Part shown: in pieces, positions 2,587 to 27,430 of the stretch | Layout of the letters: each line of letters begins with the position of its first letter | Position numbering within the stretch: position 1 is the first letter of the stretch | DNA from: a virus | Virus record (IMG/VR): IMGVR_UViG_3300032282_004551 | Coordinates: 1-28,464 of that record | Direction: 5' to 3' (one strand) | Length of the DNA: 28,464 nt | The notes under the pieces: generated by a model | What the model was told of the DNA's origin: nothing | What the model saw: the letters and a program-made list of their open reading frames with translations, nothing else | Database searches by the model: none | Position numbers and translations under genes: made by a program

Positions 2587-3114
2587 ATGAAAAAATATTT
2601 ATTAATCATTTTTGGAGATTTCAAAACAAAAAAAATAGTAGAGAGAATTGCTAAAGGTATAACACCATTAGTAGATACACCACACATAAAATTTCAACAC
2701 ACCAAAGGGACTATGATAATCCATTTTGGTTCTGAAGTAAGTAGAGAAGAAATTTATGATTTCCTTACAGGAATTCTTTATGGATTCACCGACACATTTA
2801 TTTTAACTGAAATGGATGATAGTGTAATACTTTCTATGTCTAACGATGTAAAAAAACATTTGATGGATTTAGAAAATGATGGAGACGATGTCTCAATAAA
2901 AATTGATATGTCCAAAATGAGTAAAATAAATGATGAAGATAATATCGATTATTTTGGAGAAGAATTTGTTGACGTTTTATTGGATGAATTTAAAAAAGAG
3001 ATTAAAACTCCAACATTAAATGAGATCTTAGATAAAATTAATGAGAAAGGAATAAATTCCTTAAGTCAGTATGAAAAAGAAATATTAGATAATTTAAGTA
3101 AAAATAGTATATGA
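2587..3114 (+). CDS. Conserved hypothetical protein with DUF6576-like C-terminal tail
   Basis: A 175-residue protein, no membrane segment, strongly acidic in the middle. The N-terminal ~90 residues look like a small alpha/beta domain. The last ~32 residues (TPTLNEILDKINEKG then INSLSQYEKEILDNLS) match the short motif found at the C-terminus of many Bacteroidota proteins such as rhomboid-family ones (DUF6576-like, from memory), where a helix-turn-helix-shaped pair ends in a Glu-Lys-rich LSK tail. Function unknown. The stop codon overlaps the start of the sigma factor gene (ATGA), so the two are probably co-translated from the promoter at 2543-2574. It might modulate the sigma factor, but nothing beyond adjacency supports that. 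Confidence 0.8.
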   Translation: MKKYLLIIFGDFKTKKIVERIAKGITPLVDTPHIKFQHTKGTMIIHFGSEVSREEIYDFLTGILYGFTDTFILTEMDDSVILSMSNDVKKHLMDLENDGDDVSIKIDMSKMSKINDEDNIDYFGEEFVDVLLDEFKKEIKTPTLNEILDKINEKGINSLSQYEKEILDNLSKNSI

Positions 3115-3914
3115 GAAAAAAAGCAACACCGGTAGTACCAATTAATCAAGAAGAAATTTCTGCATATCTTAAAGATATTAGAAAGTTAAAAGTTATGACA
3201 CCCGAAAGAGAACGAGAACTGGCGAAGTTAATGTTATCAGGAAGGTTAAATGATGAACAAAAAAAATCCATCAGAACTGAGTTATTAGAAGGTAATCTAA
3301 GATTTGTTATTACGGTTAGTAAGCAGTATCAAAATCAAGGGTTAGAGTTAAATGATTTAATTGCTGAAGGGAATTATGGGTTACTCAAAGCAATAGATAA
3401 TTTTGATTGGTCTAAAAATCTGAGATTTATATCTTATGCTGTTTGGTGGGTTAGACAATCAATTCTTCAATCTTTGAATGAAAATGCAAGAACTATAAGA
3501 TTACCTGTTAATGTTGTTCAAGAATTTCATAAGGCAAAAAAAAAACAAGATAATAATGGAGAAGAATTACCCGATAAGTTTGTAAATTTACCATTCACAG
3601 TTGATTTGGATAAACCTGTAAATGAGGATGGGGATACATTGGTTGATACAACAGAAAATCCAAATGCTGAAAAACCTGAAGCAATATTCTCAACCGCAGA
3701 TACATTAAAAGAAAAACTAATTGATATTCTTGGGGTGTTAGATGAAAGAGAAAAAATTATAATTGAAGATTACTTTGGGTTAACCGGTAGTCAAAGAACG
3801 TTAGAAGATATTGGTAATGATTTTGATTTAACAAAAGAAAGAGTACGTCAAATAAAGGCTAAGGCGTTGAGAAAATTAAGAAATGAATCAAATGTTTTAT
3901 TCGATTATTTATAA
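3111..3914 (+). CDS. Sigma-70 family RNA polymerase sigma factor, RpoD-like with shortened domain 3
   Basis: A 267-residue sigma factor resembling the short primary sigma of Bacteroidota. Region 1.2 is at ~12-42 (EEISAYLKDIRKL), region 2 at ~60-125 (NLRFVITVSKQYQNQG, DLIAEGNYGL, FISYAVWWVRQSI, then RTIRLPVN), the sigma finger near FTVDLDKPVNEDGD, and region 4 at ~200-262 with helix-turn-helix LEDIGNDFDLTKERVRQI. Between RLPVN and the finger only ~25 residues remain where host RpoD has ~65, so most of domain 3 (extended -10 contacts) appears absent. The -10 and -35 reading regions are host-like, which fits the TTTG/TAnnTTTG promoters in this window. Its stop codon lies inside a TATAAATA element driving the next operon. 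Confidence 0.93.
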   Translation: MRKKATPVVPINQEEISAYLKDIRKLKVMTPERERELAKLMLSGRLNDEQKKSIRTELLEGNLRFVITVSKQYQNQGLELNDLIAEGNYGLLKAIDNFDWSKNLRFISYAVWWVRQSILQSLNENARTIRLPVNVVQEFHKAKKKQDNNGEELPDKFVNLPFTVDLDKPVNEDGDTLVDTTENPNAEKPEAIFSTADTLKEKLIDILGVLDEREKIIIEDYFGLTGSQRTLEDIGNDFDLTKERVRQIKAKALRKLRNESNVLFDYL

Positions 3915-3935
3915 ATAAAAAGGTATTTATATAAA
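3906..3935 (+). promoter_or_regulatory. Tandem T4-late-like promoter elements (TATAAATA) before the membrane/lysis operon
   Basis: The 12-mer TATTTATAAATA (3906-3917, followed by AAAA) covers the end of the sigma gene, and a variant TATTTATATAAA follows at 3924-3935, 16 nt before the ATG at 3952. The T4 late consensus is TATAAATA with no -35 element. Assignment as a late promoter is by analogy. Confidence 0.55.
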
Positions 3936-3951
3936 ACCAAAAAAATAATAT

Positions 3952-4236
3952 ATGAAAAAATTTATCCAAAACAACTTTACTGTTATAGTTTTAGTTATTG
4001 CGGTTTTATCTTTTTTTAAAAGTTGTGGAGACTCAAGAGAGTTGTCTAATATCAAAAAAGAAATTAAATCAATTAAAGATTCTACATATACTAAAACAGA
4101 ATTAGGAATTGAATTAAAAGTTTCAGGGTTAGAGGCGGAAAAAAGGATGATTCAAGCAACTGATAGAAAAATGTTAGATGTTCAGAGACAAACTCAAATT
4201 GATGATGAAATTAAACTACTTAAATCGAATAAATAA
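3952..4236 (+). CDS. Small single-pass membrane protein with coiled coil
   Basis: A 94-residue protein. An N-terminal hydrophobic segment (residues ~7-24, ending FFKSCGDS) is followed by a charged, heptad-like region to the C-terminus (LSNIKKEIKSIKDS and onward), so it is probably anchored in the inner membrane with a coiled coil. I do not recognise the family. It is the first gene of a tightly coupled operon containing a multi-pass membrane protein and an amidase: its stop overlaps the next start as TAATG. A part in lysis or envelope association is inferred only from these neighbours. The cysteine after the membrane segment is not in a convincing lipobox. Confidence 0.8.
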   Translation: MKKFIQNNFTVIVLVIAVLSFFKSCGDSRELSNIKKEIKSIKDSTYTKTELGIELKVSGLEAEKRMIQATDRKMLDVQRQTQIDDEIKLLKSNK

Positions 4237-21163: not shown

Positions 21164-21757
21164 TTAGTTTATTATTTTAAATCGGTGTTTGTAACAAGTT
21201 TTACGAATAGAACCGTTATTGTTACGCCCATTATTTAATTTCTTACCTCTTAAAGAGTTTGATATCATCATTCTAACATTTCTTGCCTTACCTTTAGCAA
21301 AACCATTTTCTAATAAATAGTTAGCAGCATCAACTAAAGTTTCAAATATGTATTCTTTTTCTGTTTCTATATTTATTAAAGCAAATTTTTTAAAATTGTT
21401 GTTTTTTTGTAAGTTATATTTAGATAATTGTTTTTTTGTTTTGTCGGATAAAATATTTCTCCTTTCATCACTAACCATACATAAGTTATACCCAAATTTC
21501 ATATTATTACTTTTATATTCTGTAATATAATAATTTTCTTTGTTAACTAATACTTCAAAATCACAAAATTCAATAATTTCAAAAATAAAATTTTCGTTAC
21601 CATCTCTATTAAAAGAACTTTGAAGAAATTTATTATCGTGAATTCCTTTTTTTAACATCCAAAAGTGTTTTTCACGTCTTTTTTCTATTTCAATGGAACT
21701 TCCAACGTATACTTTATTATTTTTTGTGTTAGTTATTTTATATATTCCGCAACCCAT
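21164..21757 (-). CDS. GIY-YIG endonuclease (free-standing homing-type) with C-terminal NUMOD-like region
   Basis: A 197-residue protein. GIY-YIG domain at residues 4-~90: GIYKITNT (Gly4-Ile-Tyr6), VYVGSS (~16-21), conserved basic/acidic residues in EKRREKHFW, and VNKENYYITEY. The C-terminal half (FETLVDAANYLLENG, then RMMISNSLRGKKLNNG, YKHRFKI) resembles the DNA-binding NUMOD-type repeats of intron and phage homing nucleases, such as the Seg enzymes of T4. These cut recipient genomes so that the nuclease gene is copied by recombination. It is orphan (no intron visible) and lies between two WCT/late-gene regions on the opposite strand to the next gene, consistent with a mobile insertion. Confidence 0.88.
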   Translation of the reverse strand: MGCGIYKITNTKNNKVYVGSSIEIEKRREKHFWMLKKGIHDNKFLQSSFNRDGNENFIFEIIEFCDFEVLVNKENYYITEYKSNNMKFGYNLCMVSDERRNILSDKTKKQLSKYNLQKNNNFKKFALINIETEKEYIFETLVDAANYLLENGFAKGKARNVRMMISNSLRGKKLNNGRNNNGSIRKTCYKHRFKIIN

Positions 21758-24421: not shown

Positions 24422-24622
24422 ATGGGTTTCAATAAACGATTTATAGACTATGAAAAAACTTTAAAATACCTAAAAGAAGGTAATTTAAAGTTATTATACA
24501 GAAAATGTGACGCATTTGTTTTTGACGATTCAAAAAGTTCACGTATCTTTGACTTATATTCAAACGGTAAAACAGAAAAAGAAATAATAAAATTATATGA
24601 AAAAAACAGCATTGACGTATGA
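24422..24622 (+). CDS. Small hypothetical protein upstream of IMP dehydrogenase
   Basis: A 66-residue soluble protein from the ATG at 24422; an in-frame start 18 nt upstream would lie before the predicted transcription start. MGFNKRFIDYEKTLKYLKEG, then LKLLYRKCDAFVFDDSKSSR and a helix [14 protein letters not shown]; small alpha/beta, unrecognised. It overlaps the IMP dehydrogenase start by 26 bp, so it leads an operon with that gene and may be translationally coupled to it. Confidence 0.75.
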   Translation: MGFNKRFIDYEKTLKYLKEGNLKLLYRKCDAFVFDDSKSSRIFDLYSNGKTEKEIIKLYEKNSIDV

Positions 24623-25658
24623 TGATATCCAATTGGTTCCCGGATATTCAGAAATTTCATCAAGAAAAACAATAGATTTAAAAACTTTGGTAACGAGAAG
24701 ATATGGTTTAAATATACCATTAGTTGCATCTCCTATGGACACAGTTTGTGGATCAGGAATGGCAATAAAAATGATGGAAAAAGGTGGACTTGGAGTAATT
24801 CATCGATTTATGTCTATGGAAGAACAAAAAAAAGAAGTGATTAGAGTTAAAATGGCATGTACACAGGAAATGTATGAAAGTTGGGGTGTGATGTATGATG
24901 ATTGGTTGGGTGAAATAAAAGATATACCAGTTGCTGCGGCTGTTGGTGCTAATGGTGATTTTCACGAAAGGGCAATTGAACTAGTTGTTGGAGGTGCTAA
25001 TATTATATTAATAGATGTTGCTCACGGACATCACAAGAACGTGAAAGAAGCTATTAAAATAATCAAACGTTTAGATCCAAAAGTAGATGTGATTGCCGGA
25101 AACATTGCAACCGCACAAGCGGCATCAGATTTAATTGATTGGGGGGCTGACGGAATAAGAGTTGGAGTAGGAGGTGGATCAATGTGTACTACAAGAGTTC
25201 AAACCGGATTTGGAGTTCCAAATATAACTTGTATTGATGATATTGTTTCTGTTTCAACCATACCAGTAATGGCGGATGGTGGAATAAGAACAAGTGGAGA
25301 CATTGCCAAAGCACTTGCGTTTGGTGCAAGTACGATAATGGTTGGTTCCCTCATTGCCGGAACGGAAGAATCACCCGGAGCGATACTTGAAAAATCAACC
25401 GGATTATACAAGAGATACAGAGGTGCTGCATCTCTTGAAACAAAGATGACACATGGACAAGAGAAAAGAAATGTTGAAGGGGAATCAACTGTGATTCCTT
25501 ATAAAGGAGGTGTAAAGTATATTTTAGAGGGATTGATAGATGGAGTTAAATCCGCATTATCCTATAATGGATCGACAAACCTCAGAGAATTTAACCCGGA
25601 TTGGGTTCAAATAACCAATGCTGGACAAAAAGAGGCTAAACCGCATCTAATTTATTAA
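24597..25658 (+). CDS. IMP dehydrogenase / GMP reductase family enzyme lacking CBS domains
   Basis: A 353-residue TIM-barrel enzyme. Landmarks: [15 protein letters not shown] at the start, [16 protein letters not shown] (~44-59), the NAD/IMP loop DVAHGHH and [18 protein letters not shown] with catalytic Cys197, [20 protein letters not shown], the flap region RYRGAASLE, and [15 protein letters not shown] near the C-terminus. IMPDH (IMP to XMP, first step of GMP synthesis) is favoured over GMP reductase, but the two cannot be fully separated by eye. Cellular IMPDHs carry two CBS regulatory domains (~120 residues) after the first barrel strands; here ~20 residues stand in their place, so allosteric control is probably absent. 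Followed by glutamine synthetase. A second copy of the last 60 residues occurs at 26761-26982. Confidence 0.92.
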
Positions 25659-25691: not shown

Positions 25692-26708
25692 ATGAAAATA
25701 AAATTAGAATATGTTTGGTTAGACGGTTATAAACCGGAACCAAATCTCAGAAGTAAGATTAAAATTATTAATGTTATTAATAAAAATTTACAAATCAATG
25801 ATATTCCAACATGGAATTTTGATGGAAGTTCAACCTCACAAGCGGAAGGTTATTCTTCTGACTGTTATCTAAAACCAGTTAGAATTTATCAAAAGATTGA
25901 AATAGTTGGGAATATTATTCCAACATATTATGTTCTTTGTGAAGTTTACAATAAAAATAATGAACCTCATTACTCCAACGATAGAAGTAAATTGGGAGAT
26001 GAAGATAAAGATTTTTGGGTTGGATTTGAGCAAGAGTATTTTATTCGTTCAGGTCATAGGAAAAAAATTTTAGGACATGATACTAATTCATTTGTTGATC
26101 CACAAGGAATTTACTACTGTGGGGTTGGTGGGCAGATGGTTGGACGAGAAATTAGTGAAGAACATTTAGATTATTGTATACAGTATGGTTTGAATATTGA
26201 AGGTACTAATGCGGAAGTTGCTTTAGGACAGTGGGAATATCAAATTTTTAGTGAAGGTAGTTTAAAGTCTTGTGATGACTTATGGATATCAAGATATTTT
26301 TTATTCAAAATTGCTGAGAAATATGGATATCAAATTGATTTACATCCTAAACCACTCCCAAGTGGTGATTGGAATGGTTCAGGATTACATACAAATTTTT
26401 CAAACTCAAAAATGAGAAATGAAGGTGGTAAAGAATATTTTACTTCCATTCTTGATACTTTGGAATCAAGACATGAAATTCACATTGAAAACTACGGTTC
26501 TGATAATCATATGAGATTAACCGGTAAACATGAAACCCAATCCATTAATAAATTTTCTTGGGGAATAAGTGACAGAGGAGCATCAATAAGAATACCAAAG
26601 TTAGTTGGAGAAAGTTGGAAAGGTTATTTGGAAGATAGAAGACCGGGAGCAAACGCAAATCCATATAAAATTATAAATGTTTTATTAGAAACATTAAAAT
26701 CTTTATAA
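25692..26708 (+). CDS. Glutamine synthetase, type II (GSII)
   Basis: A 338-residue enzyme of the eukaryote/Bacteroidota-type GSII family. N-terminal beta-grasp part with WNFDGSSTSQA (41-51), then FEQEYF with Glu113 and Glu115, EGTNAEVALGQWEYQI, HPKPLPSGDWNGSGLHTNFS (ATP/ammonium region), RLTGKHET, WGISDRGASIRIP and LEDRRPGANANPY near the C-terminus: all metal and nucleotide motifs are intact. It makes glutamine from glutamate, ammonia and ATP. Glutamine is the nitrogen donor for purine, CTP and GMP synthesis, so adjacency to IMP dehydrogenase points to boosting nucleotide supply during infection. The length is normal for bacterial GSII. It may have been acquired from a host. Confidence 0.94.
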   Translation: MKIKLEYVWLDGYKPEPNLRSKIKIINVINKNLQINDIPTWNFDGSSTSQAEGYSSDCYLKPVRIYQKIEIVGNIIPTYYVLCEVYNKNNEPHYSNDRSKLGDEDKDFWVGFEQEYFIRSGHRKKILGHDTNSFVDPQGIYYCGVGGQMVGREISEEHLDYCIQYGLNIEGTNAEVALGQWEYQIFSEGSLKSCDDLWISRYFLFKIAEKYGYQIDLHPKPLPSGDWNGSGLHTNFSNSKMRNEGGKEYFTSILDTLESRHEIHIENYGSDNHMRLTGKHETQSINKFSWGISDRGASIRIPKLVGESWKGYLEDRRPGANANPYKIINVLLETLKSL

Positions 26709-26760
26709 AGTCCTTTTTTATTTGAATCATTTTTATTATTATTAAAACCAAAAAAATAGT

Positions 26761-26982
26761 ATGAAGACAATTAAAGCAATCAAAGCAACAAAACATGTTG
26801 AGGGGGAATCTACCATCATTCCTTATAAGGGTGGTGTTAAATATATTGTGGATGGATTACTTGATGGAGTTAAGTCGGCATTATCGTATAATGGTTCAAG
26901 AAACCTAAGAGAATTTAATCCTGATTGGATTCAAGTGACAAGTGCCGGACAAAGCGAAGCGAGACCACATTTAATTTATTAA
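26761..26982 (+). CDS. Chimeric ORF: short leader of the 27188 gene fused to an IMPDH C-terminal copy
   Basis: A 73-residue ORF. Codons 1-14 (MKTIKAIKATKHVE) repeat the start of the gene at 27188 with one base difference in the first 41. From there to the stop it aligns with the last 61 residues of the IMP dehydrogenase at 24597: I count 51 of 61 identical, and 22 of those 51 use a different codon. The switch occurs at a shared ATGTTGA. The IMPDH part lacks the catalytic cysteine and barrel, so it cannot be an enzyme. The excess of silent over replacement change suggests the tail was under purifying selection, either as part of a former full IMPDH or as a retained small protein. It could be a pseudogene fragment that happens to be in frame. 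Confidence 0.8.
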   Translation: MKTIKAIKATKHVEGESTIIPYKGGVKYIVDGLLDGVKSALSYNGSRNLREFNPDWIQVTSAGQSEARPHLIY

Positions 26983-26993
26983 AATTTAAAAAT

Positions 26994-27170
26994 ATGTATT
27001 GTATAATTAAAAAAATTGTAAATGAAAAAGGTATTCCGGTACCGGTGATTGTTTTGGACAGTCATGATGAAATTTTAGAGTTTGAGTCTTTAGAAGAGGC
27101 GGAAATAATGAGAGACACATTCCAAAAAAATTCAGACTCAGGTTACGAGTACATTGTTAAAAAAATATAA
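26994..27170 (+). CDS. Small hypothetical protein
   Basis: A 58-residue protein from the ATG at 26994 (a longer frame from 26925 would read back through the chimeric ORF and is unlikely). Sequence MYCIIKKIVNEKGIPVPVIV, then LDSHDEILEFESLEEAEIMR and SDSGYEYIVKKI: a small beta-alpha-beta unit with a two-strand start and a helix. No recognised family. It lies between the chimeric ORF and the gene from which that ORF's N-terminus was copied, with an A-rich spacer on either side. Confidence 0.72.
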   Translation: MYCIIKKIVNEKGIPVPVIVLDSHDEILEFESLEEAEIMRDTFQKNSDSGYEYIVKKI

Positions 27171-27187
27171 AACTAAAAACAAAATAT

Positions 27188-27430
27188 ATGAAGACAATTA
27201 AAGCTATCAAAGCAACAAAACATGTTGAAGTGGGTGAAATTAAAAGAATTAATGAGAGAGATGCAGATTCTGAAGTAAGAAGTGGATATTGGAAGTATAT
27301 CCCAAAGAGTGAGTATAAGTCTGTTACTCGCAAACCAAAAGATGTTGAACAAACAGCAAACGTTGAAAGTTCACCGGAATCTAAAAAGACTAACCCTAAA
27401 AAATCTAAGAATGCGAAAAATAGTAAGTAA
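27188..27430 (+). CDS. Small basic hypothetical protein
   Basis: An 80-residue protein. Its first 14 residues (MKTIKAIKATKHVE) are shared with the chimeric ORF at 26761. A conserved-looking part follows (VGEIKRINERDADSEVRSGY then WKYIPKSEYKS), then a Lys/Pro/Ser-rich basic tail (KKTNPKKSKNAKNSK) of the type seen in nucleic-acid-binding proteins. Function unknown. The last 20 bp overlap a 42-codon ORF starting at 27411 in another frame. Confidence 0.75.
   Translation: MKTIKAIKATKHVEVGEIKRINERDADSEVRSGYWKYIPKSEYKSVTRKPKDVEQTANVESSPESKKTNPKKSKNAKNSK

Follow-up and report, generated by a model that had tools for sequence, protein, structure and literature searches.

A chimeric ORF in a phage genome as a probable scar of recent illegitimate recombination

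Composition of the chimeric ORF

The window, that is, the whole stretch of DNA analysed here, is an IMG/VR virus record of 28,464 bases with a GC content of 29%. It carries on its plus strand an IMPDH/GMPR-family gene (24597-25658), a glutamine synthetase gene (25692-26708), an open 73-aa ORF running from ATG to TAA (26761-26982), a 58-aa ORF (26994-27170; orf26994) and an intact, phrog_829-like gene of 80 aa (27188-27430), which we call the leader-type gene. A phage sigma-70-type factor with regions 1.2, 2 and 4 is encoded at 3111-3914.

The 73-aa ORF is a chimera. Its leader part (26761-26801, plus strand) is identical in 40 of 41 bases to 27188-27228, the start of the leader-type gene, and the sole mismatch (GCA/GCT) is silent. 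The remainder (26797-26982, plus strand) encodes a tail of 61 aa whose sister sequence is the end of the IMPDH/GMPR-family gene. This confirms the initial annotation, which had described an almost unchanged leader with one difference in 41 bases and a switch, at a shared ATGTTGA, to a copy of the last 61 residues of the IMPDH. Its codon counts were also reproduced: of the 62 tail codons (stop included), 30 were identical to the intact gene, 22 differed silently and 10 carried replacements. In a protein search, the chimera matched the intact IMPDH with E = 3.5e-36, and Pfam PF00478 matched the tail at profile positions 284-345 of 345. The likeness of the tail to IMPDH is therefore not due to chance.

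The microhomology ATGTTGA lies at 26795-26801 (plus strand), and the longer string ATGTTGAAG is common to the intact leader-type gene (27222-27230) and the intact IMPDH (25471-25479). The joint thus sits on a microhomology of 7-9 bp between genes that are otherwise unrelated. At random leader/IMPDH junctions, an identical run of at least 9 bases had a frequency of 1e-4 and one of at least 7 bases a frequency of 1e-3, which supports the earlier suggestion that recombination took place at short homology. The two halves had also been proposed to differ in age. In the leader, 1 of 14 codons differed silently, against 22 of 52 in the tail (Fisher p = 0.024), and this lower rate lends modest support to the proposal.

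The chimera covers only the last 61 of the 353 IMPDH residues and contains neither the barrel nor the catalytic cysteine loop. It cannot be an enzyme and, by membership, is not an IMPDH. Nor is it a phrog_829 protein, since it has only the first 14 codons of one. AlphaFold2 modelling of the 73-aa product gave a mean pLDDT of 64 and a pTM of 0.42, with one confident helix and low confidence for the rest.

The start region of the chimera is ordinary and A-rich, and the reading frame behind it is open. As this region is intact, the chimera may be transcribed and translated. The motif TAAAACCAAAAAAATARTATG, spanning the upstream and start region (26743-26763, plus strand), recurs with one mismatch at 3932-3952, before gene 3952; for a recurrence over 21 bases, 0.02 are expected by chance, and the motif is a possible start-region signal. 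Because it recurs there, similar upstream A-rich stretches need not have been duplicated. A promoter scan gave results near chance, and a terminator scan yielded no terminator-like site at the chimera. We also considered the leader as a mobile 5' cassette present on many genes. This was rejected, as the complete leader peptide, used in a degenerate scan of IMG/VR, gave no match.

The intact IMPDH/GMPR-family gene and the ancestry of the tail

The product of 24597-25658 (353 aa, no CBS domains) matched PF00478 with E = 1.7e-103. Its best NCBIfam model was IMP dehydrogenase, with a score under the curated cut-off. The predicted structure matched GuaB catalytic domains (TM about 0.85), and the protein has a complete (beta/alpha)8 barrel and the catalytic Cys loop, with Cys197 invariant. 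The flap is short: there is a gap where solved IMPDHs have a longer flap with a 'dRYF' stretch, which holds the IMPDH Arg-Tyr pair. Given this gap, the activity may be that of an IMPDH or of a GMPR; sequence and model together place the protein at the level of the IMPDH/GMP-reductase family. For brevity, the gene is referred to as IMPDH. Its first 26 bases (24597-24622) are also the 3' end of ORF 24422. In the predicted structure of the intact protein, the tail corresponds to the distal arm of the flap, a short strand, the final helix of the barrel (306-324) and a C-terminal strand and helix. Judged from this model, the segment is not a separate domain.

The tail and the window IMPDH were sisters among phage sequences, with bootstrap values of 97 and 100 in full-length alignments and 95 for the tail alone. 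Their branch lengths in the DNA tree were similar (0.121 for the tail and 0.116 for the intact copy). From these two results, the tail is neither a host gene nor unusually fast-evolving. Grouping with a host gene, the outcome that the initial annotation had set against duplication, did not occur and is ruled out by the sister position; the sole match in genome_contigs was a full-length gene at 62%. The initial proposal that the tail came from another, diverged IMPDH is supported.

The initial annotation had also taken the low replacement rate as an argument for a retained microprotein. All columns that were at least 90% conserved among 16 other tails were also kept in the chimera. A codon model of 13 sequences was fitted on a single, hand-fixed and approximate topology, drawn roughly after the trees, with silent sites saturated. 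It gave an omega near 0.03 overall, and freeing the tail branch brought no improvement. Fixing the tail-branch omega at 1 cost 0.88 lnL units (2ΔlnL 1.8), so that values of 0.03 and 1 fitted about equally. The test has no power for the tail branch: saturation of silent sites is one reason, and the other is that the changes can be split in different ways between the two sister branches. If the single leader difference in 41 bases is used to gauge neutral change (≈ 1% per copy), the ORF is expected to gain ≈ 1.6 replacements and the probability that its frame stays open is 0.86. Given that omega = 1 costs so little and that neutral change of this size keeps the frame open, the 22:10 ratio of silent to replacement differences is no argument for function after the fusion. 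Most of the divergence of the tail probably predates the fusion, and the low replacement rate would mostly reflect time spent within a full enzyme. More generally, when most divergence predates truncation, pairwise counting of silent and replacement differences in a fragment of a gene can give a false impression of selection on a microprotein.

The mosaic around glutamine synthetase

The gene at 25692-26708 encodes a GlnII-like glutamine synthetase. All complete relatives listed have a C-terminal extension of about 40-65 residues (...ELLKEYRED...) that the window protein does not have; a search downstream for a remnant of this extension gave none that was convincing. Many viral contigs carry homologues of 21822 and 23633, often of 24422, followed by glutamine synthetase and the DUF3310 gene (28047 in the window), with no IMPDH nearby. 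In most relatives, 23633 is separated from glutamine synthetase by one or two small genes, mostly including one of 60-64 aa; in this place the window has orf24422 followed by IMPDH. A leader-type gene also adjoins glutamine synthetase in one relative (L121).

Outside the window, the IMPDH and glutamine synthetase lineages occur apart. Among 22 records with a close IMPDH, none had a close glutamine synthetase and one had a partial match of 39%. Conversely, an IMPDH match was absent from 6 of the 8 glutamine synthetase records searched and reached only 36% in the other 2. The IMPDH records searched held a single gene copy each. The initial annotation had proposed that an IMPDH-glutamine synthetase pair arrived together; this is not supported, as glutamine synthetase is resident in this locus in relatives that have no IMPDH beside it and the 22 IMPDH records lack a close glutamine synthetase.

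Homologues of orf26994 are located downstream of intact IMPDH, on the same strand, in other phages: at 0.3 kb in G001, at about 6.5 kb in G010 and G011 and, as a weak match, at about 10 kb in G009. Two other records have a homologue and no IMPDH. Since orf26994 trails intact IMPDH in other phages, the tail and orf26994 probably arrived together. This linkage and the separation of the two lineages elsewhere indicate that the window is a mosaic to which both a glutamine synthetase lineage and an IMPDH lineage contributed; material from the IMPDH side stands before and after glutamine synthetase.

It had been suggested that relatives be searched for a full IMPDH directly after glutamine synthetase. 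None was found, but in L029 a full IMPDH is followed by one gene and then by a homologue of orf26994. Neither an intermediate state of the rearrangement nor the exact donor of the tail was seen among the relatives, in scans from which the closest kin may have been missing. Intact versions of both parent genes do exist: the leader-type gene at 27188, and IMPDH in the window and in L029. A gene with a GIY-YIG nuclease domain lies at 21164-21757 on the minus strand and is a possible driver of local mosaicism.

Origin of the chimera

We consider it likely that ORF 26761-26982 is the scar of a recent illegitimate recombination and not a purpose-made small protein. The resident parent would have been a phage with the order orf23633, orf24422, glutamine synthetase and DUF3310 gene, and the other parent would have supplied DNA from a phage with an IMPDH copy (IMPDH') followed by orf26994. 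A single crossover or template switch at the 7-9 bp match, between a leader-type (phrog_829-like) start and IMPDH' near the end of the flap, would have placed the leader start codons in frame with the last 61 codons of IMPDH', followed by orf26994 and then by the full leader-type gene. The near-identical leader starts flanking the tail-orf26994 segment are consistent with a template switch followed by a switch back. We infer this order of events and this donor, and the product would be without function. The loss of the glutamine synthetase extension just before the joint counts in favour of a scar. Against it count the unchanged conserved columns of the tail, an ORF that is open, in frame and equipped with an ordinary start and a repeated motif, and the missing intermediate.

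The same open frame, the unimpaired start region, whose motif also precedes gene 3952, and the retention of all strongly conserved tail residues speak for a retained microprotein. Here, the 73-aa product would be made and would act on phage or host IMPDH, for instance by mimicry of the tail or by using the final barrel helix together with the C-terminal segment to bind the tetramer. Several results make this improbable. The codon model, within the limits of its approximate fixed topology and saturated silent sites, did not point to selection since the fusion. No second orphan tail was present in 80 loci surveyed out of 197 viral matches (7 of the 80 were cut by contig ends, and the nearest kin may be missing from the matches), and the segment consists of one arm of the flap, a single helix of the barrel and a short stretch at the C-terminus, in a chimera predicted to be poorly ordered. 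A function of the product is thus unsupported. That the phage makes a dominant regulator, poisoning or tuning the assembly of host or phage IMPDH with a short protein that contains the final barrel helix and the C-terminal segment and is expressed from a borrowed start region, is a speculation to which we give very little credence.

A different question is where the tail came from. An old duplication within the lineage could have left IMPDH copies around glutamine synthetase that diverged, the downstream copy later losing its 5' part as far as the joint with the leader. This is a variant of the scar interpretation and overlaps with it. The copies are indeed sisters with about equal branch lengths and flank glutamine synthetase, which leaves such a duplication with an appreciable if minor chance. 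It is countered by the finding that in no relative does IMPDH flank glutamine synthetase, upstream or downstream, by the single copy in each IMPDH record searched and by the position of orf26994 next to the tail, which points to an imported IMPDH-side segment. Finally, the window is a metagenomic contig in which the segment is bordered by a near repeat of 41 bases, and sequences of two strains might have been joined at or near this leader repeat during assembly. Such an artefact is very improbable: the joint and the intact IMPDH have no more than 7-9 bases in common, much less than the word sizes that assemblers usually employ, and GC at third positions is uniform (0.25 in the tail and 0.24 in the leader-type gene).

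Read as a recombination scar, the chimera offers a snapshot of how phage mosaics form: by microhomology, through in-frame fusion and with linked neighbours that hint at the kind of donor. Illegitimate recombination has long been proposed as a source of phage mosaicism, and joints made by RecET-type recombinases span 5-13 bp (as cited in PMC2327257). The 7-9 bp joint fits this class. Compared with phage members of PF00478 (phrog_9582), the tail is a clear C-terminal piece, the barrel and the catalytic cysteine loop being absent from the chimera; compared with the small proteins of phrog_829, the chimera has the first 14 codons and the remainder is absent. The chimera is a new instance of an already known type of event. 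It resembles the microhomology scars of mosaic phages in its short joint, in pieces that differ in origin and age and in the presence of a gene fragment at a module boundary. It differs from typical scars in that the reading frame is, by chance, preserved across the joint and that the whole start region has been kept.
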